From: a virus
Strand: one strand, 5' to 3'
Length of the DNA stretch: 64,000 nucleotides
IMG/VR virus record: IMGVR_UViG_3300042523_000723
Coordinates: 1 to 64,000 of that record
Shown here piece after piece: positions 2,593 to 57,325 of this stretch; position 1 is the stretch's first letter; each line of letters starts with the position of its first letter. Both the position numbers and the translations under genes were made by a program. The notes beneath the pieces were generated by a model, which was not told the DNA's origin, did no database searches, and saw nothing but the letters and a program-made list of their open reading frames with translations.

Positions 2593-3528
2593 ATGAATTT
2601 ACAAAACAATATAAGAAGAATATTACTCGAAGAAACGGAACCAAGAGTATTAAATGAATGTGTAATTGCAGGAGTTAAATTAGAAGATACCATTGTTTTG
2701 GCAAAAAATAGGGATAGAGGTTATAAGGCGAAAATTGAATTGGTTCACGAAATAGTTGACGGTGTTGAGATTGCCTATTGGAGAGATACTGATACTGATT
2801 GGAGTGAGGGAATGAATGAGTATGGAATCAGTATTGTAAATTCTGCTTTATCAACCGCTTCCGATGAAAAAGAAGGTGAAAAAGTACTTAAACAACGAAA
2901 AATTAAAAACGATAAAACTGAAAAGAGGGTATACTCAAAAGATGGACAAAAAATAAGAGAAGCTCTTACAAAAAAAGATATGCAATCTGCAGTAAAGTCA
3001 TTAATTGAATTTACTGGAACAAAAAGTAAATGGGGTTTAAGAGGTGAGACATTTGTATCAGATGGTAAAGATATTTATGTTATTGAAATGACATCAAAAC
3101 ATGTACCAATAATTAAAAAATTAGAAGAGGATTCTAAAATAGTTGTTAGATCAAATCATGGAGTATATCAAAAAGATGCGGGATACACTACGGGTGAAAA
3201 AAGAAAATCATCTGTATCTAGAATGGAATTGGCGAAAAAACATTTAAAAGATGCCAAAACAGATATGGATGTAATTAATACATTAAAACAAAAATATGAT
3301 GACGATCCATTCTTAAATCCATATAGGACTAAAAATATGTATAATATGCATACTGTTGGACAAATTATGATGAACATAAAAGAAAAACAAATTGTTATAA
3401 GAATGGACAATGAGATGGGGGAATTTGAGGGTATCAATAATAAATTACCTAAAGGTTATTCACCAAAAATAAAGATAAGAATAGAGAATGAGAAAACTCA
3501 TCACAAAGGGAAAAAATTGCCAACATAA
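2593..3528 (+). CDS. Tagged Ntn-hydrolase (C45/choloylglycine hydrolase-like)
   Basis: This 311-aa protein is probably an N-terminal-nucleophile amidohydrolase. Residues 1-22 are a packaging-type tag (MNLQNNIRRILLEE...VLNE). Cys23 opens the catalytic domain (CVIAGVKLEDTIVLAKNRDRG), as the nucleophile does in bile-salt hydrolase, penicillin V acylase and C45 acyltransferases, with the downstream NRD matching the family's N/R-D. WSEGMNEYGISIVNSAL (about residues 72-88) is the typical second motif. Substrate is unknown (an amide bond). The ATG at 2593 is chosen over an upstream in-frame start because that start lies inside the terminator and promoter element. Cleavage after LNE22 would expose Cys23. 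Confidence 0.75.
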   Translation: MNLQNNIRRILLEETEPRVLNECVIAGVKLEDTIVLAKNRDRGYKAKIELVHEIVDGVEIAYWRDTDTDWSEGMNEYGISIVNSALSTASDEKEGEKVLKQRKIKNDKTEKRVYSKDGQKIREALTKKDMQSAVKSLIEFTGTKSKWGLRGETFVSDGKDIYVIEMTSKHVPIIKKLEEDSKIVVRSNHGVYQKDAGYTTGEKRKSSVSRMELAKKHLKDAKTDMDVINTLKQKYDDDPFLNPYRTKNMYNMHTVGQIMMNIKEKQIVIRMDNEMGEFEGINNKLPKGYSPKIKIRIENEKTHHKGKKLPT

Positions 3529-3529
3529 T

Positions 3530-4156
3530 ATGAACCTACAAGAAGAAATAAAAAGAATAAAGTCAATGATGGGACTTATTAATGAAGAAGTTAAATCTGA
3601 AGAAATGAAAGATGAGAGTAGTTTATATAGTAAACTGTTATCATCTATAAGTAGATTTATTCAAGGTAAAGAATTACATGATTTCTTATTAAAAATTAAA
3701 ACAGTAACATCATTTGATGATTTTACGTTGGAGTATTCAAAAGGTTTTGAAGGTGCGAATCAATTTATAATTAATATTATAGATATTAATAACAATGAAA
3801 AAGTTGGAAAATTTGTAGCATTTGTCTATAAAGATAGTGAAACTAAAAAACACTCATTACAAATACAAAAAGTTGAAATATATCCAAAATATAAGGGTGA
3901 AGGAATAATGAGAAGATTTTATCGGGATTTTAATGAATGGTTAAAAAGTAATTTCAACAACTTTGACATGTTCACTTCCGACTTTATATTCTTATATAAC
4001 GATGAAACAGGAAAGTATGATGGTTATAATATGTGGGAAGATTTAGTTAATAAAGGATTAGCGGTTAGATTAGGTCCAGATGAAAGTTATATTCCACCAG
4101 TTGATCCACCTGCAGATAAAATGTGGAAATTAGATTATGGATACAAACTTATTTAA
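3530..4156 (+). CDS. Tagged GNAT-like acetyltransferase
   Basis: This 208-aa protein starts with the tag MNLQEEIKRIKSMMG followed by LINEE, a prohead-protease-like site. The C-terminal half has a GNAT acyl-CoA motif (VEIYPKYKGEGIMRRFY, about residues 118-134) after a beta-rich stretch (KVGKFVAFVYKD). It begins 1 nt after the preceding stop (TAATATG), so the tag start is preferred over a longer in-frame reading that would overlap the upstream gene. The acceptor substrate is unknown. It is weaker than a textbook GNAT, so the fold call is moderate. Confidence 0.6.
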   Translation: MNLQEEIKRIKSMMGLINEEVKSEEMKDESSLYSKLLSSISRFIQGKELHDFLLKIKTVTSFDDFTLEYSKGFEGANQFIINIIDINNNEKVGKFVAFVYKDSETKKHSLQIQKVEIYPKYKGEGIMRRFYRDFNEWLKSNFNNFDMFTSDFIFLYNDETGKYDGYNMWEDLVNKGLAVRLGPDESYIPPVDPPADKMWKLDYGYKLI

Positions 4157-4157
4157 T

Positions 4158-4547
4158 ATGAACCTACAAGAACAAATATCAAGAATGAAGTCAATGATGG
4201 GAATGGATAATTCTCGTTTAACTTTTGACATGAAAAAGTTACTCGATGATGGTGTTATTTTTATAACACAGGCTCACAATTTAACCACTGGTAAAATGTA
4301 TCCACCTGAGAAAGACCCTGAAACAGGTGAAATGTATTACGACTCAACAAATTTAATTACATTTCATAATCTTATGGAGCCTGAAAAAGGAACACAAGAT
4401 GGTATACCTGAAGCTATGAAACACCTAAGACCTGATAGGATTGACCATTGGCAACAAACACAAAATGAATTAGTTGATGACAAATATAATCAAATAATAA
4501 AATCAATCGAAATGAAAGGTAAAGATATAGATAATTATACAATATGA
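4158..4547 (+). CDS. Tagged hypothetical protein
   Basis: This 129-aa protein starts with MNLQEQISRMKSMMG, almost identical at the DNA level to its neighbours' starts, spaced 1 nt from the upstream stop. The body (ITQAHNLTTGKMYPPEKDPETG...) is unrecognised. It lacks a clear (I/L)xE directly after the tag, where GMDNSR follows MM. Its stop overlaps the next ATG (ATGA), giving tight coupling. Confidence 0.6.
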   Translation: MNLQEQISRMKSMMGMDNSRLTFDMKKLLDDGVIFITQAHNLTTGKMYPPEKDPETGEMYYDSTNLITFHNLMEPEKGTQDGIPEAMKHLRPDRIDHWQQTQNELVDDKYNQIIKSIEMKGKDIDNYTI

Positions 4548-5071
4548 ACCTGCAAGAAGAAATAAAAAGAATAAAGTCAATGATGGGGATTGTTACAGAA
4601 ACAAGACAAGGAATGTTTAATTGGTTAAAAGAAAAACTACCAAACACTCCTGAATATGTAATAAGAGATTGGGTTTATAAAATGATTACACAATCAGACG
4701 ATGTAAACACATATGAAGGTATTACAGAATGGATTGATGAGTGGGTTAAAGATATGGAATGGGAGTTTCAAAAAGATTTTCCAATATCAATGGATATATT
4801 TACCGATAAAACAAAAAAAGAGTTAGAAAGTAGAATTGGGGGTGAAGTAAGACAAGATGTTGATAAAGATACTGAAAGACATGAAACACAAAAAGATTTA
4901 CTTCAAAGTAAGGGAGTATCTGAAGAACCAATTATTTTATTTAAAACCAAAGATGGTAAGTATGAATTAGGTGAAGGGTGGCATAGAACCACACAGACAT
5001 TTATACAATTCCCCGATGGGTTTATACAACCTAATGTATATATCGGATTAAACGCTAAATGGTTAGATTAA
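4544..5071 (+). CDS. Tagged ParB-like domain protein
   Basis: This 175-aa protein has the tag MNLQEEIKRIKSMMG ending in IVTE, a predicted cleavage site. The C-terminal part reads like a ParB/sulfiredoxin-fold N-domain: EEPIILFKTKDGKYELGEGWHR (about 128-149), where DG-x-Y-x-L-x-(D/E)-G-x-H-R is the phosphotransferase/CTP-binding type signature. It overlaps the upstream stop by 4 nt. It pairs with the next gene, which has a similar domain. Activity (nuclease, NTPase or DNA binding) is not evident. Confidence 0.55.
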   Translation: MNLQEEIKRIKSMMGIVTETRQGMFNWLKEKLPNTPEYVIRDWVYKMITQSDDVNTYEGITEWIDEWVKDMEWEFQKDFPISMDIFTDKTKKELESRIGGEVRQDVDKDTERHETQKDLLQSKGVSEEPIILFKTKDGKYELGEGWHRTTQTFIQFPDGFIQPNVYIGLNAKWLD

Positions 5072-5072
5072 T

Positions 5073-5795
5073 ATGAACTTACAGGAACAAATACATAGGA
5101 TGAAACAAATGATGGGGATTAATGAAGTAACCAATCCCTATAATGTTAATTGGATTCCACCCACAGAAGAATATTTCACACAAGAGTTAGATGAACTATT
5201 GGGTAATAATATGAGGTTCAGTAAAGACGAATTCTTCCACCCACAAAACTATGATACAGTATATTCATTATTTCCTCACACATTTAAGATGATCGCGGAA
5301 CATTCCAAAGGGGATAACATAGAATCTGAAGAAGAGATAAAAGAAATATTGGTGGGTAAAGAGATTTCTGAATTAATGGATGATTGGAATGAATTTAGAA
5401 GGTCATTGATGATAGATAAAGAATCACAGATGGAGGCTTTCAATTTATTCAGAATGGGAACTATGGAACATTGGGATGATGAAAAAATTAATACCACATT
5501 CTATATGGGTAATTTTAGTAAGAACTTTCCTGATATGTTTAAAGATACCACATCATCAGGTTTATTAAAACAAATGGGTGACGATGTAAATTTACAAGGG
5601 TATAGTAAAAACATAGAGAACTTTAGAAACGATAGGAATTTACAATTACCACCACCTTTTGTAATGTCTTTACCAAATGGAGGGAGAGAAGGTAATATGT
5701 ATACATTAATAGGTGGACATAAGAGATCCACAGTTGCCAGACAGTTAAATGTTCCAGTGGACGTATGGTTTATAAATCTATCCAAAACTAATTAA
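5073..5795 (+). CDS. Tagged ParB-like domain protein
   Basis: This 240-aa protein starts with MNLQEQIHRMKQMMG followed by INEV, a predicted prohead-protease site. The C-terminus carries a ParB-like motif (VMSLPNGGREGNMYTLIGGHKRSTVARQLNVPVDVW, about residues 202-236), with GGHKR in place of the usual GHRR. The middle is acidic and unrecognised. It is the last gene before a strong terminator. The tandem arrangement with the previous gene suggests duplication or partner function. Confidence 0.6.
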   Translation: MNLQEQIHRMKQMMGINEVTNPYNVNWIPPTEEYFTQELDELLGNNMRFSKDEFFHPQNYDTVYSLFPHTFKMIAEHSKGDNIESEEEIKEILVGKEISELMDDWNEFRRSLMIDKESQMEAFNLFRMGTMEHWDDEKINTTFYMGNFSKNFPDMFKDTTSSGLLKQMGDDVNLQGYSKNIENFRNDRNLQLPPPFVMSLPNGGREGNMYTLIGGHKRSTVARQLNVPVDVWFINLSKTN

Positions 5796-10863: not shown

Positions 10864-11106
10864 ATGGAAAATTATATTTATTTAGATAAGGTTTTGGAAT
10901 TTATTATTAGAGGTACTAAAGTAGATTATGATATTGGTGAGATATATACATCCTATGAAGAAAGACATTATTACATTGGTCATTTACCTTTTGGTCCTCC
11001 TGTTAGTTTTGAAGAATACTGTAAGGATGTATATGGTTTAACTTATGGAGAGACGGATTATGTATGGGAACAATATAGAAGGGAACTAAATAAGATAACT
11101 TATTAA
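10864..11106 (+). CDS. Small acidic/aromatic hypothetical protein
   Basis: This 80-aa protein is rich in Tyr and acidic residues (SYEERHYYIGHLPFGPPVSFEEYCKDVYGLTYGETDYVWEQY). No family is recognised. It is a single-gene unit between an inverted repeat and the GIY-YIG gene on the opposite strand. Confidence 0.55.
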   Translation: MENYIYLDKVLEFIIRGTKVDYDIGEIYTSYEERHYYIGHLPFGPPVSFEEYCKDVYGLTYGETDYVWEQYRRELNKITY

Positions 11107-12326: not shown

Positions 12327-15323
12327 ATGAAGATAACCATAAAGAATATTATCAACGAAAATATAGATATTACACCAGAAGAAAAATTTATTAATGGTAT
12401 TAGTAATTTTATTAAATTACCTTATTTTTATAATTTAAGGGTTAATGAAGTACCTGAAGAATTATGGGATAGAATATTATCAAAAGTGTTTAAACAAAAA
12501 GTAAGTGTAAGTGTAAGTGTAAGTGAAAATTATATATATGATGAAAACAATAATGAAATTTATCTTGAAGATTCAAATGGTTTTTGGTGGAAACGAGAAT
12601 ATGATAAAAACAATAACGAAATTTATTATGAAAATTCAGATGGTTATAGGATAAATCGAGAATTTGATAAAAACAATAATCCAATTTATTATGAAAATTC
12701 AGATGGTGATTGGGAAAAAAGAGAATATGATTCAAATAATAATGAAGTTTATTTTGAAACTTCAAATGGTTATATTATTGATAATCGACCAAATAGTTCC
12801 ATTAATGAAAATATAGATATTACCCCAGAAGAGAAATTTATTAATGGTATTGTAAAATTTATTAATATCCCTTACTTCTATAATTTAAAAGTTACAGATA
12901 CTCCAGAACATTTATGGAATAGAATATTGTCAAAGAAATTTAATCAAGAAGTAAGTGTAAGGGATAATTATATATATAATTCAAACAATAACCAAATTTA
13001 TTATGAAACAAAAAAGGGTGGTTGGGAGAAACGAGAATTTGATAAAAACAACAACAGAATTTATTACGAAAATTCAAATGGTTATTGGGAGAAACGAGAA
13101 CTTGATAAAAACAATAACATAATTTATTATGAAGATTCAGATGGTACAATTAGAGATGACAGACCAAGTAGTTCCATTAATGAAAATATAGATATTACCC
13201 CAGAAGAGAAATTTATTAATGGAATTGTAAATTTTATTAGATTACCTTATATCTATAATTTAAGTGTTAATGAAGTACCGAAAGAACTATGGAATAGAAT
13301 ATTATCAAAAATATTTAATCAAAAAGTAAGTGTAAGGGTAAGTGGACGTTATAAGTATATATTTGATTCAAACAATAACTCAATTTATTATGAAGATTCA
13401 GATGGTTATTGGTCAAAACAAGAATATGATTCAAACAATAACATAATTTATTATGAAAATTCAGATGGTGAAATTAAAGATAACAGACCAAGTAATTCCA
13501 TTAATGAAAATGTAGATATTAACCCAGAACAAAGATTTATTAATGGAATTGTAAATTTTATTAGATTACCTTATATCTATAATTTAAGTGTTAATGAAGT
13601 ACCGAAAGAACTATGGAATAGAATATTATCAAAAGTGTTTAAACAAAAAGTAAGAGAATATAATAATTATCTATTTGATTCAAACAATAATGAAATTTAT
13701 CGTGAATATTTAAATGGTTATTGGATAAAAAAAGAATATGATAAAAACAATAACTTACTTTATTTTGAAGATTCAGATGGTGATTGGGAGAAACAAGAAT
13801 TTGACAAAAACAATAACAGAATTTATTCTGAAAATTCAAATGGTTTTTGGGAGAAACAAGAATATGACTCAAACAATAACTCAATTTATTATGAAAAGTC
13901 GAATGGTTATTGGGAGAAAAAAGAATATGATTCAAACAATAATGAAATTTATTTTGAAGATTCATATGGTTATATTTTAGATAACAGACCAAGTAACCCA
14001 TTAAATGAAAATATAGATAACACCCCAGAAGAGAAATTTATTAATGGATTAAGTAAATTAATTAAACCACCTTATTTTTATAATTTAAGAGTTAATGAAG
14101 TACCAAAAGAATTATGGGGTAGAGTATTATCAAAAGTATATAATCAAGAAGTAAGTGTAAGTGAAAATTATATATATGATTCAAACAATAATGAAATTTA
14201 TTATGAAAGATTAAATGGTCATTGGTCTAAACGAGAATTTGATAAAAACAATAACAAAATTTATTTTGAAGATTCAGATGGTTATTGGGGAAAACAAGAA
14301 TTTGATAAAAATAATAACTTAATTTATTTTGAAAATTCAAATGGTTATATTATTGATAAAAGAAATATTAACGAAAATATTGACCCAGAAGAAAAATACG
14401 TTAATGGTATTGTAAAATTTATTAATATCCCTTACTTCTATAATTTAAAAGTTACAGATACTCCTGAAGAATTATGGGATAGAATATTATCAAAAGTATA
14501 TAATCAAGAAGTAAGGGTACAAGGTAATGGAATAAATAATTCAAACAATAACCAAATTTATTGGGAAGATTCAGATGGTTTTTGGGAGAAACGAGAATTT
14601 GATAAAAAAAATAACGAAATTTATTTTGAAAATTCAAGTGGTTATTGGGAAAAAAGAGAATATGATTCAAATAATAATGAAGTTTATTATGAAAATTCAT
14701 ATGGTTTTTGGATAAAACGAGAATATGATTCAAACAATAACAGAATTTATTATGAAAATTCAAATGGTGAGTGGTATAAACAAGAATATGATTCAAACAA
14801 TAACAGAATTTATTTTGAAGATTCAGATGGTAAAATTATAGACAACAGACCAAGTAACCCATTAAATGAAAATATAGATATTACCCCAGAAGAGAAATAC
14901 ATTAATGGATTAAGTAATATGATTAGAACACCTTATATCTATAATTTAAGGGTTAATGAAGTACCTGAAGAATTATGGGATAGGATATTATCAAAAGTAT
15001 ATAATCAAGAAGTAAGGTTAAGTAATAACTATATATTTGATTCAAACAATAACCAAATTTATTATGAAGATTCAGATGGTGATTGGGAGAAACGAGAATT
15101 TGATAAAAAAAATAATTTAATTTATTATGAAGATTCAGATGGTTATTGGTCAAAACAAGAATATGATTCAAACAATAACAAAATTTATTATGAAAATTCA
15201 GATGGTTATTGGATAAAACGAGAATTTGACAAAAACAATAACAAAATTTATTATGAAGATTCAGATGGTAATATTGTGAACAACAGACCAAGTAGTTCCA
15301 TTAATGAAAACAATACCATATGA
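12327..15323 (+). CDS. Seven-module repeat protein, putative processed polyprotein
   Basis: This 998-aa protein is built from seven similar modules of 108-167 residues. Each opens with NENID-x-(T)PEEK-(F/Y)-(I/V)NG, has a helical segment (YNL-x-VNEVPEELWDRILSK) and then 2-5 tandem repeats of about 22 residues of the form YDSNNN-x-IYYE-(N/D)-S-(D/N)-GYW-x-K. Each boundary has (I/L)NE, at residues 9-11, 159-161, 284-286, 392-394, 559-561, 681-683, 846-848 and finally 992-994 before a four-residue tail. The N-terminus is itself tag-like (MKITIKNIINE). The short repeats recall YD/MORN-like beta hairpins; no family is certain. It may be packaged and cut into units by the prohead protease. Confidence 0.75.
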   Translation: MKITIKNIINENIDITPEEKFINGISNFIKLPYFYNLRVNEVPEELWDRILSKVFKQKVSVSVSVSENYIYDENNNEIYLEDSNGFWWKREYDKNNNEIYYENSDGYRINREFDKNNNPIYYENSDGDWEKREYDSNNNEVYFETSNGYIIDNRPNSSINENIDITPEEKFINGIVKFINIPYFYNLKVTDTPEHLWNRILSKKFNQEVSVRDNYIYNSNNNQIYYETKKGGWEKREFDKNNNRIYYENSNGYWEKRELDKNNNIIYYEDSDGTIRDDRPSSSINENIDITPEEKFINGIVNFIRLPYIYNLSVNEVPKELWNRILSKIFNQKVSVRVSGRYKYIFDSNNNSIYYEDSDGYWSKQEYDSNNNIIYYENSDGEIKDNRPSNSINENVDINPEQRFINGIVNFIRLPYIYNLSVNEVPKELWNRILSKVFKQKVREYNNYLFDSNNNEIYREYLNGYWIKKEYDKNNNLLYFEDSDGDWEKQEFDKNNNRIYSENSNGFWEKQEYDSNNNSIYYEKSNGYWEKKEYDSNNNEIYFEDSYGYILDNRPSNPLNENIDNTPEEKFINGLSKLIKPPYFYNLRVNEVPKELWGRVLSKVYNQEVSVSENYIYDSNNNEIYYERLNGHWSKREFDKNNNKIYFEDSDGYWGKQEFDKNNNLIYFENSNGYIIDKRNINENIDPEEKYVNGIVKFINIPYFYNLKVTDTPEELWDRILSKVYNQEVRVQGNGINNSNNNQIYWEDSDGFWEKREFDKKNNEIYFENSSGYWEKREYDSNNNEVYYENSYGFWIKREYDSNNNRIYYENSNGEWYKQEYDSNNNRIYFEDSDGKIIDNRPSNPLNENIDITPEEKYINGLSNMIRTPYIYNLRVNEVPEELWDRILSKVYNQEVRLSNNYIFDSNNNQIYYEDSDGDWEKREFDKKNNLIYYEDSDGYWSKQEYDSNNNKIYYENSDGYWIKREFDKNNNKIYYEDSDGNIVNNRPSSSINENNTI

Positions 15324-15349
15324 AATGATAAATTTTATAATCTAAACTA

Positions 15350-15378
15350 TTGACATTATGATATATTATACGTATTAT
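15350..15378 (+). promoter_or_regulatory. Sigma70-type promoter
   Basis: TTGACA (15350-15355), 17-nt spacer, TATTAT (15373-15378), upstream of a gene-free structured stretch. Confidence 0.5.
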
Positions 15379-15384
15379 TATATT

Positions 15385-15610
15385 ATAGTTATTTGATATA
15401 GAAGGTTACATATCCCACTGTCTCCATCCCCACACCACAGGAGATAGAAAGGTGAAAGAAAAGTCAGAGTCTTTACACTGGGTGTGTAAACCTTATCCGT
15501 GAGAAGATAAAGTGTCTAATCTGAAAGATACATACTACTCACAAAAATCAGAGAGGGATAAAAATTAGGGTTTTATTTTTTAAGTCCGAACTTTATCCCT
15601 TTTTTTATTC
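15385..15610 (+). ncRNA. Candidate structured RNA, about 220 nt
   Basis: It lies between a promoter (15350) and a strong terminator, with no ORF. Visible helices are TCTCC/GGAGA around 15431-15456, TTTACAC/GTGTAAA around 15471-15491, and TTATC/GATAA just after. TCAGA and TCTGA enclose the last two as a small junction. The exact ends are guesses from promoter and terminator positions. Confidence 0.4.
15551..15608 (+). terminator. Rho-independent terminator with long loop
   Basis: AGGGATAAA and TTTATCCCT pair over 9 bp, followed by TTTTTT. The loop is about 30 nt. Confidence 0.65.
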
Positions 15611-15618
15611 ACTAAAAA

Positions 15619-15650
15619 TTTGACATTGTAAAATATAATTCGTATATTTG
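15619..15650 (+). promoter_or_regulatory. Bacteroidota/sigma70 composite promoter
   Basis: TTTG at 15619 with a 20-nt spacer to TATATTTG (15643-15650). The same bases also read TTGACA-N17-TATATT. It drives transcription into the G/C-run region. Confidence 0.65.
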
Positions 15651-15670
15651 TATTAATGAAAGATACATAG

Positions 15671-15698
15671 ATAGACATATTGATAGACATATTGATAG
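15671..15698 (+). repeat. Short tandem repeat, iteron-like
   Basis: ATAGACATATTG occurs twice in direct succession and a third partial copy (ATAG) follows. Confidence 0.6.
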
Positions 15699-15710
15699 TT
15701 GAGGTAACAT

Positions 15711-15820
15711 AGGGGGGTACCATATAGAAATATATAAGTACCCCCTATAAAGGGGGGATCCCCCTATACCCCCCCGTATAACCCCCCTTCCCTATGGGGA
15801 TATAACGAAGTTTAAAGGGG
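15711..15820. repeat. Cluster of G/C-run palindromes
   Basis: AGGGGGGTAC (15711-15720) can pair with GTACCCCCT (15738-15746). GGGGGATCCCCC (15753-15764) is a perfect palindrome. C7 and C6 runs (about 15769 and 15782) face later GGGG and GGGGG runs. In a genome this AT-rich such runs are exceptional and imply a selected structure in DNA or RNA. Confidence 0.65.
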
Positions 15821-15912
15821 GTGTGATATCGTCCATAAATTTTCCAGGAAATTTTTAGGTTTAGGTTCGAAGTCTTTTTCGTCCCATTCAATAAGTTTTT
15901 ATAAACGATGAT

Positions 15913-15932
15913 AAACAACACCCATTTCTGGT
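15913..15932 (+). repeat. 20-nt direct repeat, copy 1
   Basis: AAACAACACCCATTTCTGGT, identical to 16346-16365. Confidence 0.8.
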
Positions 15933-15998
15933 GAATAAGGGATACCCTTCAAAATTTTTCCCTGGAATTTTTAAGTTTAGAATTAAAGTGTTTTTAAT

Positions 15999-16154
15999 AT
16001 GAAGTGTATGTATCGGGTTCGTATTTATGAGAAATTCCTATATGGTTTGGGTGAAGAGAATACGATATTAAAGGGAGAGTTATTCTATAGTGATTATCAG
16101 AAGTTATTTAATTATTTACGTTTAAATTTATATGAACGTAAGGATGGTAAGTAA
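15999..16154 (+). CDS. Small ORF possibly interrupted by an in-frame stop
   Basis: A 51-codon frame (MKCMYRVRIYEKFLYGLGEE...YERKDGK) ends in TAA at 16152-16154, yet the same frame stays open for 27 more codons (LIDVGDSELWEKDYSYQVRV...) to a TAG near 16236. Both parts have similar composition, suggesting one ancestral gene of about 80 codons with a nonsense change, or readthrough. No family is recognised. Confidence 0.4.
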   Translation: MKCMYRVRIYEKFLYGLGEENTILKGELFYSDYQKLFNYLRLNLYERKDGK

Positions 16155-16345
16155 TTAATAGATGTGGGTGACAGTGAATTGTGGGAGAAGGATTATAGTT
16201 ATCAGGTGAGAGTAAATAAGAGGATTGTTGAGGGTTAGAGATGTCTTCTTCAAATAAGGTTTTTTCAGAATAACATATGGTATGTTATTTTAGAATATTC
16301 TATGTTATACTATGAGGATGGTTTTCTTCAAATGGGTTTCATCAG

Positions 16346-16365
16346 AAACAACACCCATTTCTGGT
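16346..16365 (+). repeat. 20-nt direct repeat, copy 2
   Basis: Identical to 15913-15932. Here the preceding AAATGGGTTTC (from 16330) can fold onto GAAAC...ACCCATTT, so this copy forms the 3' arm of a hairpin. Confidence 0.8.
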
Positions 16366-16424
16366 AAAAGGGGTTAGATGTCAAAAAAATTTTTGAAAAA
16401 TTTTTCTATTTCAAATATTTTGTT

Positions 16425-16432
16425 TATATTTG
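16425..16432 (+). promoter_or_regulatory. Bacteroidota -7 element
   Basis: TATATTTG, 18 nt before the ATG at 16451. No TTTG lies at the correct -33 distance. Confidence 0.4.
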
Positions 16433-18050: not shown

Positions 18051-18335
18051 ATGGGAAGAATTGAAAAACAAAAAAGATTAATTATTGAACTATCAAATAA
18101 ACGTTTGTTGGGTGAGTCTATAGTTAATATGGAAAAAGTAATAAAAGATATGAAATATAAATTTGGTTATGATGATTTATCTTCCGACATTGTAAATGAG
18201 TTTGAGAGACATATGGGTGGTGATTTAATTAATCAACTAACGACAAATGAATATACTGATTTATTTTCGGATTGGGTGTCGTCCAAAGGACAAACTCCAA
18301 ATTACGGAAACTACAACTCAATGGTGAGTGAGTAG
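18051..18335 (+). CDS. Tagged hypothetical protein, MGRIEKQ family
   Basis: This 94-aa protein begins with MGRIEKQKRLIIELSNKR followed by LLGES, a predicted protease site. The same 5' module recurs at 18611. The remainder is helical and unrecognised. Confidence 0.55.
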   Translation: MGRIEKQKRLIIELSNKRLLGESIVNMEKVIKDMKYKFGYDDLSSDIVNEFERHMGGDLINQLTTNEYTDLFSDWVSSKGQTPNYGNYNSMVSE

Positions 18336-18361
18336 AATAATAGAATGAAATAAAAATAAAT

Positions 18362-18598
18362 ATGAAAATAAGAATTACAGAATCACAATATAATAAAATT
18401 TTAACTGAGTCATATTATGATTCGAATAAATTATACACTAAACAATATATAGAGAATGTAACTATGAAGGCGCCTATGAATATTAAAAATATTGTTAGAA
18501 GTTTAGAGGTTATTGATTGTATAGATAAAAATGGTAATATGTCACAATGTGTTATGATACCTGAAGTATTATATATGTATGTTAGTGGTAGATATTAA
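18362..18598 (+). CDS. Tagged hypothetical protein, ITESQ family
   Basis: This 78-aa protein starts with MKIRITESQYNKILTES, with (I)-L-T-E/S as predicted cleavage site. The rest contains two Cys (VIDCIDKNGNMSQCVM) and is unrecognised. The tag is of the same type as those on the lysozyme and the LRR protein. Confidence 0.55.
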   Translation: MKIRITESQYNKILTESYYDSNKLYTKQYIENVTMKAPMNIKNIVRSLEVIDCIDKNGNMSQCVMIPEVLYMYVSGRY

Positions 18599-18610
18599 AC
18601 ATAAAAAAAA

Positions 18611-18931
18611 ATGGGAAGAATTGAAAAACAAAAGAGATTGATGATTGAACAATCGAACAGACGGTTGTTGAATGAACAGAATGAAAAATTAACTCAAGGT
18701 TATATTAACAAAATGACTAAATCTATACAAGGTTTAATACCGTATATGGTAAAATCTGGTGATGATATTGATGGTATAATAAAAAAATCTAAAGAAAAAG
18801 ATGGTTTACATTTTTTACCTTTTAATAAAGAATTAAATACACACATTATTGATCCGGATAAGATTTATTCCGGAGATGTTTTATTTTTTATGACCGACCA
18901 CACAAGTAGTATGGGTAAAATGGGGTCTTAA
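18611..18931 (+). CDS. Tagged hypothetical protein, MGRIEKQ family
   Basis: This 106-aa protein begins with MGRIEKQKRLMIEQSNRR followed by LLNEQ, the same cleavage-like LLNE found in the major capsid protein. The C-terminal part (DPDKIYSGDVLFFMTDHTSSMG) is unrecognised. It is the last gene of the 18051-18931 run. Confidence 0.55.
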   Translation: MGRIEKQKRLMIEQSNRRLLNEQNEKLTQGYINKMTKSIQGLIPYMVKSGDDIDGIIKKSKEKDGLHFLPFNKELNTHIIDPDKIYSGDVLFFMTDHTSSMGKMGS

Positions 18932-25353: not shown

Positions 25354-25806
25354 ATGAATTCAAGACAAAAATTTATATCCACATTAATAGACTTCCTGAA
25401 TAAAAGGTATGGTAAAATGTCCAACCCAAATAAAGACTTTAATCTTTTTAGTAATGTATTGGGGTACGCAACGGAAAAGGTTAGACCAGAATTAGTTAAT
25501 ATATACGATATAGAGTATCGTTCTGACTTATATTATGAGATTATTAATAAATTTGTTAGGGATAACTATGGTGACGGTAATAATGCATTACCTGGAGACA
25601 GAATACGTTTAATTAACATGCCTGATGATCCTAACCCAATAGAACCTAACACTACAGGTACTGTTACATCAATAGATACAATTAATATGTTCGATGAAGA
25701 TCTTTTAAACGTTGATTGGGATAACGGTAGAATTTTAAATTTGATTGTGGGTATTGATGAATTTGAGGTTATTGATAAAGATGAACAAAATAATTTTAAA
25801 CAATGA
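25354..25806 (+). CDS. DUF4314-like domain protein
   Basis: In this 150-aa protein, residues about 78-135 (GDRIRLINMPDDPNPIEPNTTGTVTSID...VDWDNGRILNLIVGIDEF) match the small beta-barrel DUF4314 pattern: G-x-R-x-x-L-x-x-M-x-DPxPIxPxTxGTV then WDNGxxLxLIxGxD. Function is unknown. Its stop overlaps the next ATG (ATGA), so it is coupled to the metallopeptidase gene. Confidence 0.65.
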   Translation: MNSRQKFISTLIDFLNKRYGKMSNPNKDFNLFSNVLGYATEKVRPELVNIYDIEYRSDLYYEIINKFVRDNYGDGNNALPGDRIRLINMPDDPNPIEPNTTGTVTSIDTINMFDEDLLNVDWDNGRILNLIVGIDEFEVIDKDEQNNFKQ

Positions 25807-26825
25807 AAGATTTAATTAGGAAAATATTAAAAGAGGAGTTTACACACCCGAACCATCAAAAGTTTTTAGATGGTGTGGTTAATTCTTTATTAGAAACTAT
25901 ATATATTTCACCGTCAAATAACATGACTTCGTTTGGATCTGTTAGTGAGATGGAAGATATTGGTGTTTTTGATATCGATCTCGAAAGAATAAGACATGAA
26001 GATAAATATATAAAACAATTAGGGTGGGACTATCATTATGATCCTGAAGACGTATATGATGAAGGATATTATTTCAGAATAAATAACCCAAAACAACAAT
26101 ATAATTCAGATGAATTTTATTATGAAATTGTTTATGATTGGTTAGATACTTTGGTGGAAAAGGGGGTATTGGATTATAATGAAGATTTCGGAGATGCGGG
26201 TGAATGGGTTTTATTGGAAGATGATATTTTACTAAAAAGTAAATTGTTTATTTTTAATTGTACTGTATGGAGAACGTTATTAAAAGATGGATATGAATTA
26301 TTTGGGTGTGAGAGTTCCGCTAACCGAATCTCAATTATGGGAAAACTTAATAGTGTTTACGACATTGATGACTCTTTTTCTATGGATTATGTAGTAAACG
26401 AATTTTTCAGAAAATTACCATATAAGTTAAAAGATATGGGTATTAAAATGATTATACCTTCAGATAATGAAACACTGAATGAAAGTATAGTTGGTGATTT
26501 TATTGAATTCGGAAAAAGGGAATTATCATTAGGTGATGGATTTAGAGTTAATTTAACTGATAATGGTGATGACATTGAGACATTGGCGAATTATGATATG
26601 ATAGATGGTGAGATTAATGTCCTAACAAGAGATAGGGCAACTCCAGATATAATTAGATCCATTGCACATGAAATGGTACATCATAAACAAAATGAAAGAG
26701 GTGATTTAAGAGGTAATCCTGATGAGGGTGAAGATGGGTCACCTTGGGAAGATGAGGCGAACGCAAAGGCGGGTGAGTTACTTAGGGTTTTTGGGAAACA
26801 ATATCCTGAGATTTATGATATATAA
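25803..26825 (+). CDS. Tagged zinc metallopeptidase-like protein
   Basis: This 340-aa protein's N-terminus MKDLIRKILKEEF is a tag with LKE/E. Near the C-terminus SIAHEMVHHKQ (about residues 283-293) is a perfect HExxH zinc site, followed by EDEANAKAGELL (about 317-328), a good third ligand Glu, as in gluzincin-like phage metallopeptidases. The N-terminal 200 residues are acidic and unrecognised. A packaged protease could act on host proteins on entry. It ends 13 nt inside the convergent DUF192 gene. Confidence 0.65.
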   Translation: MKDLIRKILKEEFTHPNHQKFLDGVVNSLLETIYISPSNNMTSFGSVSEMEDIGVFDIDLERIRHEDKYIKQLGWDYHYDPEDVYDEGYYFRINNPKQQYNSDEFYYEIVYDWLDTLVEKGVLDYNEDFGDAGEWVLLEDDILLKSKLFIFNCTVWRTLLKDGYELFGCESSANRISIMGKLNSVYDIDDSFSMDYVVNEFFRKLPYKLKDMGIKMIIPSDNETLNESIVGDFIEFGKRELSLGDGFRVNLTDNGDDIETLANYDMIDGEINVLTRDRATPDIIRSIAHEMVHHKQNERGDLRGNPDEGEDGSPWEDEANAKAGELLRVFGKQYPEIYDI

Positions 26826-28328: not shown

Positions 28329-28342
28329 ATATTTATAAATAT
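28329..28342. promoter_or_regulatory. Palindromic bidirectional late element
   Basis: ATATTTATAAATAT is a 14-bp palindrome with the late motif on both strands. The lysozyme ATG (28341) follows 4 nt after the plus-strand motif; the HNH gene lies on the other side. Confidence 0.55.
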
Positions 28343-28892
28343 GAAAATTATAATTACTGAAAATCAATTAAAAAGATTAATAATTGAAAGTGACAATAGA
28401 AGTGATGGCACTAAATTAATCGCCAGTCAAAATTTTTGGGATTGGTTAAGGTGGCATGAGGGTAGTCCAACCAAAAAAGGAGATCCGTTATTAAAGGCAT
28501 ACAAAGATACCGTAGGCGTTTGGACTATTGGTTATGGACATACAGGTGAAGAAGCGTATGAGGGTAACGTAATATCTAAAAGTAAGGCAAATGATCTATT
28601 TATTAAGGACGTGAATGAGGCCGCAAAATGTGTAAAAACATTTTTAAATTCTTGGAAGGAAACAAATCATGAGGGATATAAACTTAAACTGAATGAATAT
28701 GAGGCACTCATTTCATTAGTTATTAATAGTGGGTGTGAGGGAGTGAGAACATCTGATTTCATTCAAAAACTTAAAAAAGGTAACTATGATGATGCAGCAG
28801 AACTAATTAAAACCTATAGATCAAAAGGATTAAAAAATAGGCGTAATGTAGAATATGAATTATTCAAAAACTCACAATACATTAAGGATTGA
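28341..28892 (+). CDS. T4-type lysozyme (GH24) with packaging tag
   Basis: This 183-aa enzyme hydrolyses the MurNAc-GlcNAc bond of peptidoglycan. After a tag (MKIIITENQLKRLIIES, with I-E/S site), the GH24 domain starts near residue 30. WHEG carries the catalytic Glu, and YKDTVGVWTIGYGHT the Asp and Thr in the usual E-8-D-5-T style spacing, with LNEYEALISLVINSGCEGV as the later helix. There is no signal peptide or transmembrane anchor. The tag implies it may travel in the virion rather than, or besides, acting as endolysin. Confidence 0.85.
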   Translation: MKIIITENQLKRLIIESDNRSDGTKLIASQNFWDWLRWHEGSPTKKGDPLLKAYKDTVGVWTIGYGHTGEEAYEGNVISKSKANDLFIKDVNEAAKCVKTFLNSWKETNHEGYKLKLNEYEALISLVINSGCEGVRTSDFIQKLKKGNYDDAAELIKTYRSKGLKNRRNVEYELFKNSQYIKD

Positions 28893-28911
28893 ATTTTTTA
28901 TTAAAAACAAT

Positions 28912-28919
28912 ATATTTAT
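28912..28919 (+). promoter_or_regulatory. Late-promoter-like ATATTTAT element
   Basis: ATATTTAT, 17 nt before the ATG at 28937. Confidence 0.5.
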
Positions 28920-28936
28920 ATAATAAAAACTAAATT

Positions 28937-30574
28937 ATGAAATACATTATATCTGAAAATCAATATAAGATATTACTTAAAGAAGATAGGGTAGAATTCT
29001 TAAGAAATCAAAATGTAATTGATCCAGAAACATTAGACCAAGCGGTAGAGGGTGAAAATGAAAGAGAAGATGAAAGAGAACCGGGAGGTGGTAGAAATAG
29101 AAGAATTAACGTTAAACCTATCGAAAATCATGAGGGTATCGATATCGCATATATTGTTACTAGTAGAAATGGTAAACAATCAATAAAATTATCGCCAGAA
29201 ATATTTCAAGACATTGTAGATGCCGACCCATCGAACAATAAACAATATGTTCAGTGGATGATTAAAGTGTTTATGAATCATATTAACGAAAATGATTTCG
29301 AACAAGCGGTTAGATTTTTAGCGGAAGATTTACCTGAAGCGAATGAATTTTTAGGTGTTTTCGATAAAGTTAAAAGTAAAAAAGTATTTAAAAGAAGTGC
29401 ACCTAATAGACCTAACGCACCTCAAAATGTGACAGACATCAACCAATACAGCGATCTAGCACACCTATATAGTGTAGTGAGTCCCTTTGTTGGTGCCGAA
29501 GATGAAGACGAAGATGGGGAAAGTAAGATTTGGAAAAGTTTGAAAAAATTCGTTGACTTAGGTGAGGCAAGACTAGCATATCGAGATAATGACGTATTAG
29601 TATATACACCATTAACAAGGGATTCGAGTTGTGAACCTTTAGGTGGTTTAGCCTCTTGGTGTACTAGAAGAGAAGGTAACAGTTATTTTGATAGTTATAG
29701 AAGAAATAACCCAAAACCTGATGGGTCACTTTCCGATTATTATGTAATTATGCCTAAAAAACTTTTCGATGGTGATGATGAAGGTGGTTTATATCCACTA
29801 CAATTCCATTTTGAATCTAATCAAATACACGATAAAAATAACTCATCTATAGAAAACAGCAGTAAGTTAGATAGTGTTTTAAATAGATTTTCAGGACTTA
29901 GGGATTTCTTTAAGAAAGAATTGGGTGCGTTAGTAGAGATGGACGTAAGAAAAGGATCGGGACTTATGGAGAGTTCATATATTAAATATTTAAATAAGTT
30001 TGGTGGATCCGCGAAAGAACACATAAGCGGTGAAGCGTATGAAGAAGGTGTTAAGAATATTAAGAAATTAGCGTCAGAACAAACTGTACCATTAAAACAA
30101 AACAAATACTTAAATTGGTTATTAGATAATGTTGATGATGTCGATGTTACAGAGTATTTAGATAAGGATACTGTTGAGATGGTAGACTTTTCTGATATGA
30201 AGATTAAAACTCTACCAGACTTATCAGGATTCAAAAAACTAAGTCATTTAGCAGCCATAAATTGTGGCCTTGATAAATTCCCACCTGCGGATTACTTACC
30301 ATTGGACACATTGGTAATGCTTTCATTAAGTAATAATAATATTGTGGAAATACCTGGTGAGGGATATGAAAAATTAAAAACTGTATTTGGAATATCTGCA
30401 GGTGGTAACCCGATTAAAAAAGTTAACAACGAAACATTAAAGAAAATGTGTACTAAAGAAGGTGCTACCATCGTTAGACTTTCTTTCGACACTAATGGTT
30501 TAGAAGGTGAAAATAAAGAAGAATTCTACAAGATGAAAGATGAGTTCTGTCAGGGGATAATGTGGTCAATATAA
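28937..30574 (+). CDS. Tagged leucine-rich-repeat protein
   Basis: This 545-aa protein starts MKYIISENQYKILLKED (tag, LKE/D). The middle contains ASWCTRREGNSYFDSYRR (about residues 233-251) and YYVIMPKKLFDG with QFHFESNQIHD, a pattern shared by some large-phage proteins of unknown function. Residues about 410-510 form several leucine-rich repeats (LPDLSGFKKLSHLAAINCGLDKFP, LVMLSLSNNNIVEIP). LRRs usually bind proteins. A packaged LRR protein could be a host-directed effector; that is inference. Confidence 0.6.
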   Translation: MKYIISENQYKILLKEDRVEFLRNQNVIDPETLDQAVEGENEREDEREPGGGRNRRINVKPIENHEGIDIAYIVTSRNGKQSIKLSPEIFQDIVDADPSNNKQYVQWMIKVFMNHINENDFEQAVRFLAEDLPEANEFLGVFDKVKSKKVFKRSAPNRPNAPQNVTDINQYSDLAHLYSVVSPFVGAEDEDEDGESKIWKSLKKFVDLGEARLAYRDNDVLVYTPLTRDSSCEPLGGLASWCTRREGNSYFDSYRRNNPKPDGSLSDYYVIMPKKLFDGDDEGGLYPLQFHFESNQIHDKNNSSIENSSKLDSVLNRFSGLRDFFKKELGALVEMDVRKGSGLMESSYIKYLNKFGGSAKEHISGEAYEEGVKNIKKLASEQTVPLKQNKYLNWLLDNVDDVDVTEYLDKDTVEMVDFSDMKIKTLPDLSGFKKLSHLAAINCGLDKFPPADYLPLDTLVMLSLSNNNIVEIPGEGYEKLKTVFGISAGGNPIKKVNNETLKKMCTKEGATIVRLSFDTNGLEGENKEEFYKMKDEFCQGIMWSI

Positions 30575-52218: not shown

Positions 52219-52236
52219 TTTTTTTAACATAGTGAT

Positions 52237-52244
52237 ATATTTAT
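52237..52244 (+). promoter_or_regulatory. Late-promoter-like ATATTTAT element
   Basis: ATATTTAT, 20 nt before the prohead-protease ATG. It rules out an upstream in-frame start at 52232. Confidence 0.5.
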
Positions 52245-52264
52245 TATTAAAGTATATCACTATT

Positions 52265-54076
52265 ATGGAAATATTAAAAAATAACGATAGCAATAAGAGG
52301 GGTGTCCTTATTGAGTATGATTCGGGATACATTTCACCAAAAGATAACCAGAACTTTATTAGTGAAATGACTAAACTATCAAAAGGGGAACCTATCATAG
52401 AGGAACCTTTGATAGTTTATGCGGTTATGCAAAAATATGGGGTAGAAAACAGAAATGGAAGAGTATACCCTGAAGCTATACTTAGACGAGAAGCGGAAAA
52501 CTACCTTAAACTTATTAAAGAAAAAAGAGCGTTAGGGGAATGCGTACCTGAAGGTACTGAGATTTACACCACTGATGGGTGGTTTAAAATTGAGGATGTT
52601 AAAGTTGGTGATAAAATTTTAACAATGAATATTGATACCAACTTCATTGAGGAACAAAATGTTACGGATACTATCAAAAAACAATATGACGATGACTTAA
52701 TCCATATCTATAACAATAGTAGTTTAGACATGAAAATCACTAAAAAACATAAAGTAGTATTATGGGATAGAAATGATAAATCTTATATCTTAACTGGTGA
52801 AGAATTATATGATAAAATAAAAAATAAAGATTCTAAAGTATCTCATTCTTATATTAAACATTCCGCAGAATGGGTAGGTGATTCACCTAAAACTTATACA
52901 TTAAAAAATAGTGATATTACTATAGATATAGAAGATTGGGTTTCTTTTTTAGGTATTTTTATTGCCGATGGACATTGTAGTGGAACTAAAGGTGGCAATA
53001 AGAAAAATTTAGTATGTATTACACAAGTGAAGGAAGAGTCCTCAAAAATGATTGAGTCTTTACTTGAACGGTTACCTTTTAAATATAGTGTATCAGATAA
53101 CAGACAATATAACATATATAGTAAAGAATTATATGATGAATTGTTCAGTTTAGGGAATTCATATCAAAAACATATACCTAATTATATTAAACAATACTCA
53201 CCGGAATTGTTAAATATTTTATTAGATTGGTTATTACTTGGTGATGGAAGAAACAGACACAATAGTAAAAATGAATTAATTAAAGAATATGTCACTACAT
53301 CAAAATCTTTGGCAGATGACGTATTCGAAATTATAGTAAAACTAGGGTACGGTGCAACAATTAACACAATCACACCAAAAGATAGAATTATTGTTGATGA
53401 AAACGTAGTCTTTAGTGAGGTTGAAAATGAAGATGGAACAATTTCTTTAATTAAAGAAAAAATTAAAACTAAACGATTAATAAAATCTTCTGATTCTAAA
53501 GTATTATATAATGTACACCTTAGAACTAATAAGGGAATTTATTTAGATCATAGATTTATAAAGATTGATAAGATTAAACATAATGATTATGTATACTGTG
53601 TAACTGTCCCTAATAGTACGTGGTTAATGAGATCAAATAATAAGATCTCTTGGACACATAATTGTGACCACCCAGAATCATCTATTGTTGCGGTAAGTAG
53701 AATTTCTCATAATGTGGTAGACCTTTGGTGGGAAGGTAATGTACTTATGGGTAAGTTAGAAATCATTATGTCACCGGGATTCGTAAACCAAGGAATTATA
53801 TCTTGTGAAGGTGACAGAGTAGCGAATTATTTGAGAAAAGGTTTAAAGATTGGTGTGTCATCAAGAGGTGTAGGTTCTTTGGAAAAAGAAGGTGGTAAGA
53901 ATATAGTGCAAGACGATTTTGAATTAATTTGTTGGGATATTGTTACCTCACCGTCTACTCCAGGTTCTTGGATTTATAGTGATGTTCCATCTAGAGAACA
54001 ACAGATGTCTGAGTCGAATATTAAAAAAGAAGATGCTATCCTTAAAGATAATTTAAATAATTTTTTACTCGATTAG
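52265..54076 (+). CDS. Prohead maturation protease (T4 gp21-like) with intein
   Basis: This 603-aa protein becomes about 229 aa after splicing. It is a serine protease (HK97/herpes assemblin-type fold) that cleaves capsid, scaffold and internal proteins after (I/L)xE. GVENRNGRVYPEAIL (about 58-72) opens the fold. The intein interrupts ALGE/CDHPESSIV, which holds the catalytic His. LKIGVSSRGVGSL follows with the nucleophilic Ser. It sits directly before the scaffold gene, the usual order. As it must act on the tagged proteins, splicing of its intein gates head maturation. Confidence 0.92.
   Translation: MEILKNNDSNKRGVLIEYDSGYISPKDNQNFISEMTKLSKGEPIIEEPLIVYAVMQKYGVENRNGRVYPEAILRREAENYLKLIKEKRALGECVPEGTEIYTTDGWFKIEDVKVGDKILTMNIDTNFIEEQNVTDTIKKQYDDDLIHIYNNSSLDMKITKKHKVVLWDRNDKSYILTGEELYDKIKNKDSKVSHSYIKHSAEWVGDSPKTYTLKNSDITIDIEDWVSFLGIFIADGHCSGTKGGNKKNLVCITQVKEESSKMIESLLERLPFKYSVSDNRQYNIYSKELYDELFSLGNSYQKHIPNYIKQYSPELLNILLDWLLLGDGRNRHNSKNELIKEYVTTSKSLADDVFEIIVKLGYGATINTITPKDRIIVDENVVFSEVENEDGTISLIKEKIKTKRLIKSSDSKVLYNVHLRTNKGIYLDHRFIKIDKIKHNDYVYCVTVPNSTWLMRSNNKISWTHNCDHPESSIVAVSRISHNVVDLWWEGNVLMGKLEIIMSPGFVNQGIISCEGDRVANYLRKGLKIGVSSRGVGSLEKEGGKNIVQDDFELICWDIVTSPSTPGSWIYSDVPSREQQMSESNIKKEDAILKDNLNNFLLD
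52541..53662 (+). other. Contiguous intein with LAGLIDADG nuclease in prohead protease
   Basis: 374 aa. Block A is CVPEGTEIYTTDGWFKIEDV. Block B region is NSSLDMKITKKHKVVLW. LAGLIDADG helices are FLGIFIADGH and LLDWLLLGDG. Block G is ISWTHN followed by extein Cys. Inserted one residue before the Asp-His of the active site. Confidence 0.9.
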
Positions 54077-55570: not shown

Positions 55571-57325
55571 ATGGGACATTTGTTAAATTCAGGTCAAGTC
55601 GGAAACATCGGACTAGAGCACCTAAAGCAAATCAGATCTAAAACTATTTCTAAGTGGACCTCATTAGGTTTCCTTGAAGGTTTGAAAGGTCACGTAAAAG
55701 AGAACATCGCACAATTGTACGAAAACCAAGCATCTTCTTTACTTAATGAGTCGACTTCGTCTGATTCATCAGGTTCATTCGAGACAGTGGTATTTCCAAT
55801 TGTACGAAGAGTATTCTCTAAATTATTGGCTAACGATATCGTATCGGTACAAGCGATGAACATGCCAATTGGAAAATTATTCTTCTTTGTACCTAAAACA
55901 TCATCTACACAAGTTCCTTTGAACGGTAAAGATGGTTCCGCTAACGGATCATTACCAGCATGTGTTATTTCTGGATGTAATGAAGATACACTTATCACTC
56001 CATTCTTAGAGAAGTCACTATATGACTTATACTATAATGATGGATTGTTTGACGCATCTAAAGGTAAAAAAATCGTTTTTGCTGGGGCAGGTTTCTATGG
56101 TGCAACACTTAACGCTAATGGTGTGAAAGTACCTACTAATTTATCATCACAACCTAAAGCTTCGGATGGTTCATTCAGAAGTGTTAAAATGTGTGTAACA
56201 GGTTTCTCTACTACTAACGCAGGTAGATTAACTGGACCAGACGGAAACGAAATGGATACTGAATCTTTCTTATCTTCTTTATCAGTAGTTTCTACACCAG
56301 CAATTGTTGATGGTGATGGTAAACAAATTATTGCTGCAGGTGGTAGTGTACCATTTAGAGTAGTAACTCAGAAATACGGAAGAGGTATCGTTGATTATGG
56401 TGATATCTGTACTCCTGATGGATGTTTACTAATCGAATTGGACCTTACACATCCAGCTTGTATTGATTGTTCTTCTGCTAACTTTGACGGATATGTTGGT
56501 GCGGCAACTGGAACTTCATTTACAGGTTTGACTGTAGCTTGGTCCAGATACGAATCATTAGAATTCTCAACTGAAATGGGTGAGGTATCATTCGAACTTG
56601 ATGAAGTTGTGGTTTCTGTAACAGAAAGAAAACTAAGAGCTACTTGGTCACCAGAATTGGCACAAGACGTTAGTGCATTCCATAACATTGATGCAGAAGC
56701 AGAACTTACGGCGTTATTGTCTGAGCAAGTTGCGGCGGAAATCGATAGAGAGATCCTAAGAGACTTAAGAAAAGGTTCGGCTTGGCAATTGAGATGGGAT
56801 TACAACGGATGGAAACGAGCTAACAATGGTGGTGGTTTCAACGCTTACACTCAAAAAGAGTGGAATCAAACGTTGATTACTAAAATCAATCAAATCTCAG
56901 CTCAAATTCATAAGGCTACTTTAAGAGGTGGTGCTAACTTCATCGTTGTTTCGTCTGAAGTTTCTGCTATCTTTGATGACTTAGAATACTTCCACGTATC
57001 TAACGCATCTCCAGAGCAAGATCAGTACAATATGGGTATTGAGAAGATTGGTTCATTAGGAGGAAGATATACTGTATATCGTGATCCATATGCACCGGCT
57101 AACTCAATCATCATTGGACACAAAGGAAAATCATTGTTGGATACTGGGTACGTTTACGCACCTTACGTACCTCTACAATTGACTCCTACGTTACAAAACC
57201 CGTTCAACTTCGCACCAACGAAGGGTATCATGACTAGATACGCTAAGAAAATGGTTAATAACCGTTTCTATGGTGTAGTTACAGTTGATGGAGTTCAAAC
57301 ATTCGATGTAAACGAATTGAGATAA
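55571..57325 (+). CDS. Major capsid protein (T4 gp23-like)
   Basis: This 584-aa protein forms the head shell. The N-terminal propeptide of 60 residues ends ASSLLNE/STSS, analogous to the T4 gp23 cleavage FLTE/A. The mature part begins before FETVVFPIVRRVFSKLLANDIVSVQAMNMPIGKLFFF, the gp23 family opening (VRR...A.D...VQPM..P.G). A later EMGEVSFELDEVVVSVTERKLRATWSPELAQDVSAFHNIDAEAELTALLSEQVAAEIDREIL is the conserved HK97-fold core. Codon use is richer in GC-ending triplets than neighbours, as in a highly expressed gene. A terminator follows. Confidence 0.95.
   Translation: MGHLLNSGQVGNIGLEHLKQIRSKTISKWTSLGFLEGLKGHVKENIAQLYENQASSLLNESTSSDSSGSFETVVFPIVRRVFSKLLANDIVSVQAMNMPIGKLFFFVPKTSSTQVPLNGKDGSANGSLPACVISGCNEDTLITPFLEKSLYDLYYNDGLFDASKGKKIVFAGAGFYGATLNANGVKVPTNLSSQPKASDGSFRSVKMCVTGFSTTNAGRLTGPDGNEMDTESFLSSLSVVSTPAIVDGDGKQIIAAGGSVPFRVVTQKYGRGIVDYGDICTPDGCLLIELDLTHPACIDCSSANFDGYVGAATGTSFTGLTVAWSRYESLEFSTEMGEVSFELDEVVVSVTERKLRATWSPELAQDVSAFHNIDAEAELTALLSEQVAAEIDREILRDLRKGSAWQLRWDYNGWKRANNGGGFNAYTQKEWNQTLITKINQISAQIHKATLRGGANFIVVSSEVSAIFDDLEYFHVSNASPEQDQYNMGIEKIGSLGGRYTVYRDPYAPANSIIIGHKGKSLLDTGYVYAPYVPLQLTPTLQNPFNFAPTKGIMTRYAKKMVNNRFYGVVTVDGVQTFDVNELR

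Follow-up and report, generated by a model that had tools for sequence, protein, structure and literature searches.

The window analysed here is the whole stretch of 64,000 nucleotides at positions 1 to 64,000 of the record IMGVR_UViG_3300042523_000723, an 85.8-kb viral contig with genes for the portal, the terminase, gp23 and a prohead protease of the S77 family. The matches of its gp23 among phage records are T4-like phages, the best of those with a named host being Microcystis phage Mel-JY01, at 40 % identity, and Flavobacterium phage immuto, at 43 % within the part that was matched, and a relative of its portal protein is encoded by 552 viral stretches. The gene considered below, P0001, is situated in an accessory gene region, outside the head gene cluster of the window, and has the following features (in the motifs a bar marks the predicted cut):

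12327..15323, + strand: P0001, candidate seven-module polyprotein gene, 998 aa (ORF translation; second copy in contig L003)
12327..12359, + strand: N-terminal tag MKITIKNIINE, similar to a capsid-targeting sequence and ending in INE (tag pattern match)
12351..12359, + strand: predicted cleavage site INE|N, residue 11 (motif)
12360..12809, + strand: module 1, residues 12-161, 18.2 kDa
12801..12809, + strand: joint INE|N, residue 161 (motif)
12810..13184, + strand: module 2, residues 162-286, 15.2 kDa
13176..13184, + strand: joint INE|N, residue 286 (motif)
13185..13508, + strand: module 3, residues 287-394, 12.8 kDa
13500..13508, + strand: joint INE|N, residue 394 (motif)
13509..14009, + strand: module 4, residues 395-561, 20.5 kDa
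14001..14009, + strand: joint LNE|N, residue 561 (kept in L003, with a 2-residue deletion just after it)
14010..14375, + strand: module 5, residues 562-683, 14.8 kDa
14367..14375, + strand: joint INE|N, residue 683 (upstream context DKRN, not DNRPSSS)
14376..14870, + strand: module 6, residues 684-848, 20.2 kDa
14862..14870, + strand: joint LNE|N, residue 848 (motif)
14871..15308, + strand: module 7, residues 849-994, 17.8 kDa
15300..15320, + strand: C-terminal INE|NNTI, residues 992-998, the last site

The ORF translation agrees exactly with the layout described in the earlier note: eight (I/L)NE triplets, ending at residues 11, 161, 286, 394, 561, 683, 848 and 994, bound seven modules of 108-167 aa (150, 125, 108, 167, 122, 165 and 146 aa), and four residues (NNTI) are left after residue 994. 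A peptide spanning a joint is, for example, DNRPSSSINENIDITPEEK. No [IL]xE is present in P0001 other than these eight triplets, of which one closes the tag, one lies at the C-terminus and the others mark the joints; about 2.5 [IL]NE would be expected from the composition of the protein, and inside the module bodies the number of [IL]xE is zero, against a mean of 12.6 in shuffled bodies (20,000 shuffles, minimum 2). With a looser pattern, VNE|V is also matched within five caps, and VSE|N in modules 1 and 5, where it stands in the linker between cap and repeats (residues 67 and 613, respectively). The full chain is acidic (pI 4.6). Internal translation starts for the modules were considered as well; since the chain contains only two Met among its 998 residues, an internal ATG start is impossible for most modules.

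A second assembled contig, L003, carries a near-identical array (996 aa, 99.7 % identity to P0001), in which NIV replaces NIDNT just past the fifth joint motif while the LNE there is unchanged, so the array is unlikely to be an assembly artefact. The DNA of the caps is 73-95 % identical among modules, and the modules are fairly recent duplicates. Immediately 3' of the gene, about 1.1 kb of the window (15324-16429) contains no ORF of 60 aa or longer.

The modules share one plan, namely a cap (consensus PEEKFINGIVxFIxxPYFYNLxVxEVPEELWxRILSKVF), followed by the 21-aa beta repeat (YDSNNNEIYYENSDGYWEKRE) in multiple copies and, in most cases, a tail similar to NRPSSS. The AlphaFold2 model of module 2 by itself (residues 162-283, alignment of 18 sequences; pLDDT 94.9, pTM 0.83) consists of three helices, corresponding to the cap, followed by a beta meander and a C-terminal tail at pLDDT 58; as modelled, the module is a self-contained, independent domain with a flexible tail at the joint. 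Its nearest solved folds, a weak likeness (best E 2.4e-3, TM ~0.43), are parts of YD/Rhs shells. Like the YD/Rhs-type beta-repeat proteins, the module has a meander of beta-strands, but a short one and without a closed shell, and Pfam RHS repeat families gave no match to P0001 up to E=1. Scans of P0001 against Pfam, NCBIfam and PHROG yielded no convincing family. The PHROG 'endolysin' phrog_7854 covers the beta repeats only, Pfam DUF6602 covers only part of the protein, and both were dropped as indications of function. The PDB sequence search returned chance-level matches only (N-rich glycoproteins and one Rhs protein), and the scan of bacterial genomes returned one locus, on a Candidatus Izimaplasma MAG contig, in which the repeats were matched.

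Residues 1-11 of P0001 fit the pattern M[KNER]xx[IL]xx[IL][IL]xE, found in 21 entries of nine contigs (near-identical copies from sister contigs included) with lengths from 87 to 998; the orthologous tags are MKVTIKGIIKE and MKVTIKGILKE. Another protein of the window has a tag of the same class:

25803..26825, + strand: 340-aa protein with the tag MKDLIRKILKEE (tag pattern)

Among 646 proteins of at least 100 aa from nine contigs of the clade, the frequency of [IL]xE is 0.048 at residues 6-10 and 0.037 at residues 11-15 as compared to 0.015 in the protein body, i.e., an approximately threefold N-terminal rise, and no such rise was found for [IL]xD and VxE in the same contigs. Annotated proteins of Flavobacterium phage immuto have N-termini similar to these tags. 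In phage T4, L/I-X-E is the motif after which gp21 cleaves, and the N-terminal 10 residues of IPIII are sufficient as a CTS to bring a protein into the head (PMC9026906). Other N-terminal tag families recur in the window as well (MNLQEQIHRMKQMMG, MKIRITESQYNKILTE, MKKRVIRLSESDLQRIVKRVI and MGRIEKQKRLMIEQ; positions 2593-5795, 18051-18931, 28341-30574 and elsewhere), being perhaps different classes of head-targeting sequence.

The protease and the capsid protein are encoded as follows:

52232..54076, + strand: prohead protease of the gp21/S77 family, interrupted by a LAGLIDADG intein (PF03420 5.5e-18; Intein_splicing 1e-9; phrog_207 9.5e-33)
55571..57325, + strand: major capsid protein (MCP) gp23, predicted site SLLNE|STSSD (PF07068 2e-71)
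55742..55750, + strand: MCP maturation-type site LNE|S, residue 60 (motif)

The S77 Pfam profile matches the window protease with 65.6 bits (cut-off 27), the match being split by the intein, and the homologues in relatives are uninterrupted and 229 aa long; the capsid protease of the window phage must splice before working. An intein-like insertion is also present in the terminase large subunit (45300-48470) and missing in its L005 homologue. On the minus strand, at 30949-34146, a ClpA/B-like ATPase is distributed over two ORFs, the second of which opens with an intein-like segment ending ...VSNGIISHN|TGKTTIVEG; the arrangement resembles that of a naturally split intein whose N-part is very short. 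The part of the record at 64,431-85,318 (L121/L122) is a long, mostly minus-strand run of genes, whose products have N-termini resembling, by eye, those of sugar-nucleotide and glycosyltransferase enzymes.

As to the capsid protein, (L)NE precedes its predicted mature N-terminus in the window (LNE|S), as in the earlier note; in the relatives, (L/M)(N/S)E|ST occurs in 13/13 of the distinct gp23 N-termini that were read, just ahead of the conserved mature region; further upstream, the same 13 N-termini have VKE|N, IKE|N or VRE|N, and LYE|N.

The search of 50 related records with P0001, many of these records being fragments in which a missing match says little, gave matches in 6, and the degenerate-pattern scan with the cap alignment retrieved the near-identical contig only. 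In related T4-like phages single-module homologues carry the N-terminal tag (MKVTIKGIIKE|S, MKRLIRKILREE). One of them, in G033, is a complete gene of 138 aa (MKVTIKGIIKE|SNDNKQRYYDKVSKVIHLPYLRDL...FDLRY, followed by the stop). In L005 (IMGVR 3300028045_000136), which by its portal and terminase genes belongs to the same phage group as the window's phage, the cap, usually with beta repeats as in P0001, occurs in several tandem genes, most of which start with MKRLIRKILREE; unlike the P0001 chain, these units are separate genes with stop codons. In L156 and L163 a homologue of the G033 gene lacks the stop and runs on into a second module, the read-through joints being ...NDINE|SVYSDKLIDK... or ...YDLNE|SVYSDKLIDK.... 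The joint triplet of P0001 aligns with the tag end of the single-gene forms. The repeat-only relatives (L002, L004, L006-L011) do not bear on the joints, because they lack the cap and are encoded as small individual genes, often in tandem, whose ends are different. In L010, L008 and L005 the same 21-aa beta repeat makes up separate genes that stand in tandem arrays, with differing ends.

The relatives also contain modules of a second family, family B (consensus KxYLDKVVDWLVxDT...YCxxTYGLTxDExxYVW; the P0001-type modules are referred to as family A), which is predicted to be all-alpha; the fold search with its model found nothing. The window has one such module on its own:

10864..11106, + strand: stand-alone family B module, 80 aa (homology to the six-module B chains of relatives)

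Six family B modules form a chain of 615 aa in G033, with the joints LNE|S, IYE|S, INE|S, INE|S and INE|S, and the chain of L163 (627 aa) has INE|S, FNE|S, IYE|S, LNE|S and INE|S. These six-module proteins have the architecture and the joint motif of P0001 but, in contrast to it, are all-alpha and have no N-terminal tag, the first module standing directly at the start. In the stand-alone B genes the start Met directly adjoins the module, where the cutting of a chain would leave the mature end. Mixed chains exist as well, in which family A is joined to B via ITE|S, VTE|S, ISE|S or LNE|S. There is some resemblance between the first helices of the two families, which leaves room for a distant common origin of the A and B module start. 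The C-terminal LKE|SYDWGF of the family B chain, whose counterpart in single genes is LYEIQDWGFLK, is probably just the native C-terminal end. Other multi-domain chains with hydrophobic-x-E|S/N at the joints were seen in L098, L102, L127, L156, L158, L159 and L163; in one of them (L127:5402-7786, minus strand, 794 aa) the sites flank a polynucleotide-kinase-like domain.

For the statistics of the joints, module starts were located by A and B profiles that exclude the motif. In the first joint set, 36 of the 37 joints have [ILVM][NTSKYR]E[SND] at most 14 residues upstream of the module start, whereas random positions within the same proteins gave a mean of 0.97 and a maximum of 5 in 5,000 trials (p<=2e-4); the control motifs at these 37 joints are at background ([IL]xD, 7 vs 8.2 expected; [IL]xQ, 2 vs 1.2). 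Repeats without the motif at their joints in related phages would, according to the earlier note, speak against processing. In the relatives, hydrophobic-x-E|S/N is kept at 43 of 44 unique internal joints, a set which includes near-orthologues, so that its members are not independent, and for which the family B seeds were drawn from joints already seen; the sole joint without a site is L005 1277-1903. The residues are I (28), L (9), V (4), F (1) and M (1) at P3, N (32) at P2, E (43) at P1, and S (34) and N (9) at P1'. The joints and the MCP have their P3-P1' preferences in common, which points to one enzyme acting on both. The distance from the joint site to the profile start varies from -1 to 6. 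Among these joints with their differing flanks, no feature is better conserved than the motif, which recurs in the all-alpha family B and at the joints between families, not only in family A. Since related phages encode the units as separate genes or in other chains with this site, the joint site looks like a real processing signal and not an accident of the repeats. A purely structural role of the motif is less likely, given the varying spacing between INE and the domain and the flexibility of the joint.

We consider it likely that P0001 is a polyprotein of internal head proteins, which is targeted by its tag, cut by the gp21-like protease into seven, and the products of which are probably injected. 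The polyprotein reading of the earlier note is thus supported in part, by the joints, the relatives, the single tagged genes and the MCP site; two details need correction, the full chain being of 121 kDa by computation instead of 110 kDa and the last site (INE|NNTI) perhaps being a duplication relic. Two features of a viral polyprotein are seen here, namely several separately folding units that are carried by a single ORF, each joint having a protease-type site, and the existence of these units as separate proteins in relatives. We infer the packaging, cleavage, protease identity, injection and function of P0001 as follows. Residues 1-11 would act as a capsid-targeting sequence (CTS) and dock the chain in the prohead core. 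During capsid maturation, the gp21-like (S77) protease would cleave each (I/L)NE, that of the tag as well as those of the joints, on the C-terminal side of its Glu, removing the tag and freeing seven self-contained acidic domains of 13-21 kDa within the head. By analogy with the T4 IPs and Alt, the released domains would then probably be injected with the DNA and act in the host cell. As for its origin, the array probably arose by in-frame tandem duplication of one tagged gene; selection would have preserved the cleavage triplet at each joint, the rest of the tag being lost.

Several observations on the sequences stand against the polyprotein reading. The tag is not universal, as the family B chains and some stand-alone genes have none; the joint L005 1277-1903 is without a site, two of the modules (1 and 5) contain an internal VSE|N, and the motif is just three residues long. 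Moreover, the last site, INE|NNTI, releases only four residues; it may be trimmed, or may be a relic of an eighth unit or of the duplication.

The best surviving alternative, which we nevertheless regard as rather improbable, is that P0001 stays whole, (I/L)NE being either a structural linker or the conserved beginning of the duplicated unit; at most the tag would be removed. Some of the conservation is indeed inherited, the modules being fairly recent duplicates, and INE|NNTI does resemble the start of an eighth unit. However, the other suggestion of the earlier note, namely that each repeat simply starts with this conserved motif, is less convincing, because the motif holds, with varying spacing, in the all-alpha family and at the between-family joints, and is the best conserved part of joints with differing flanks; besides, it adjoins a predicted flexible tail, and the single-module homologues carry it exactly at the tag end. 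Still less probable is the cutting of the joints by another protease of the host or the phage in the cytosol, with products acting in the infected cell and not in the head. The family B chains and many stand-alone modules, which start at the module without a tag, would fit such a scheme, as would the ClpA/B-like ATPase encoded by the phage. Yet the tag class found across the clade is present on P0001 and on several of the family A relatives, the joint motif is the same as that of the MCP maturation site, and no alternative Glu-specific protease came up in the analysis, which was unsystematic on this point. Finally, it is very improbable that P0001 is a repeat-protein scaffold or filler, cut incidentally like T4 gp22 and gp67 into fragments that are prohead-core waste: T4 scaffold and core proteins are cut by gp21 into several fragments (PMC9026906), and P0001 is acidic as noted, but its fragments are, as modelled, well-folded domains that exist as individual genes in related phages, and the gene lies away from the head gene cluster.

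Beyond P0001 itself, we give about even chances to the broader proposal that in a clade of T4-like phages the protease of capsid maturation also processes polyproteins. Small injected effectors, with two or more folds among them, would be carried in one chain, packed together and cut only inside the head, and thereby released with delay and in a fixed ratio. If such chains are cut into folded cargo, one tag would load many proteins in a fixed ratio, and the chained effectors would be spared one tag each. The rules for entry into the phage head would, if this is true, be readable from sequence, and the tag together with the hydrophobic-x-E|S/N joints would make a simple predictor of injected proteins, serving the large group of uncultured phages represented by the 552 stretches with a portal relative.

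The processing of polyproteins characterises many RNA viruses and retroviruses, and the head protease of tailed phages is known for propeptide removal and scaffold break-up. Internal proteins with a CTS tag and the cutting of scaffolds at several sites are thus already known. A prohead-protease polyprotein in phages was not found in the literature searched, which covered few subscription journals, and relative to this literature a chain of folded cargo units with a predicted head-protease site at each joint appears to be novel. Among the closest known systems are T4 IPI-IPIII and Alt. They are accessory genes, as P0001 is, their products have a short N-terminal tag (about 10-20 aa) ending in L/I-x-E, as on P0001, and the gp21-type protease and the gp23 MCP are encoded in the same genome, as here. 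In Pfam, NCBIfam and PHROG, P0001 was not assigned to the IPI-III or Alt families, and no sequence relation was found. The main difference is that each T4 IP gene gives one mature protein, whereas P0001 strings seven together with a site at each joint. Cleaved head proteins such as T4 gp22 and gp67 and those of phiKZ and SPN3US resemble P0001 in that one chain receives one or several prohead-protease cuts, as proposed here; in their case the cuts strip propeptides or break up the core, whereas the predicted sites of P0001 separate folded domains, which elsewhere are single genes.
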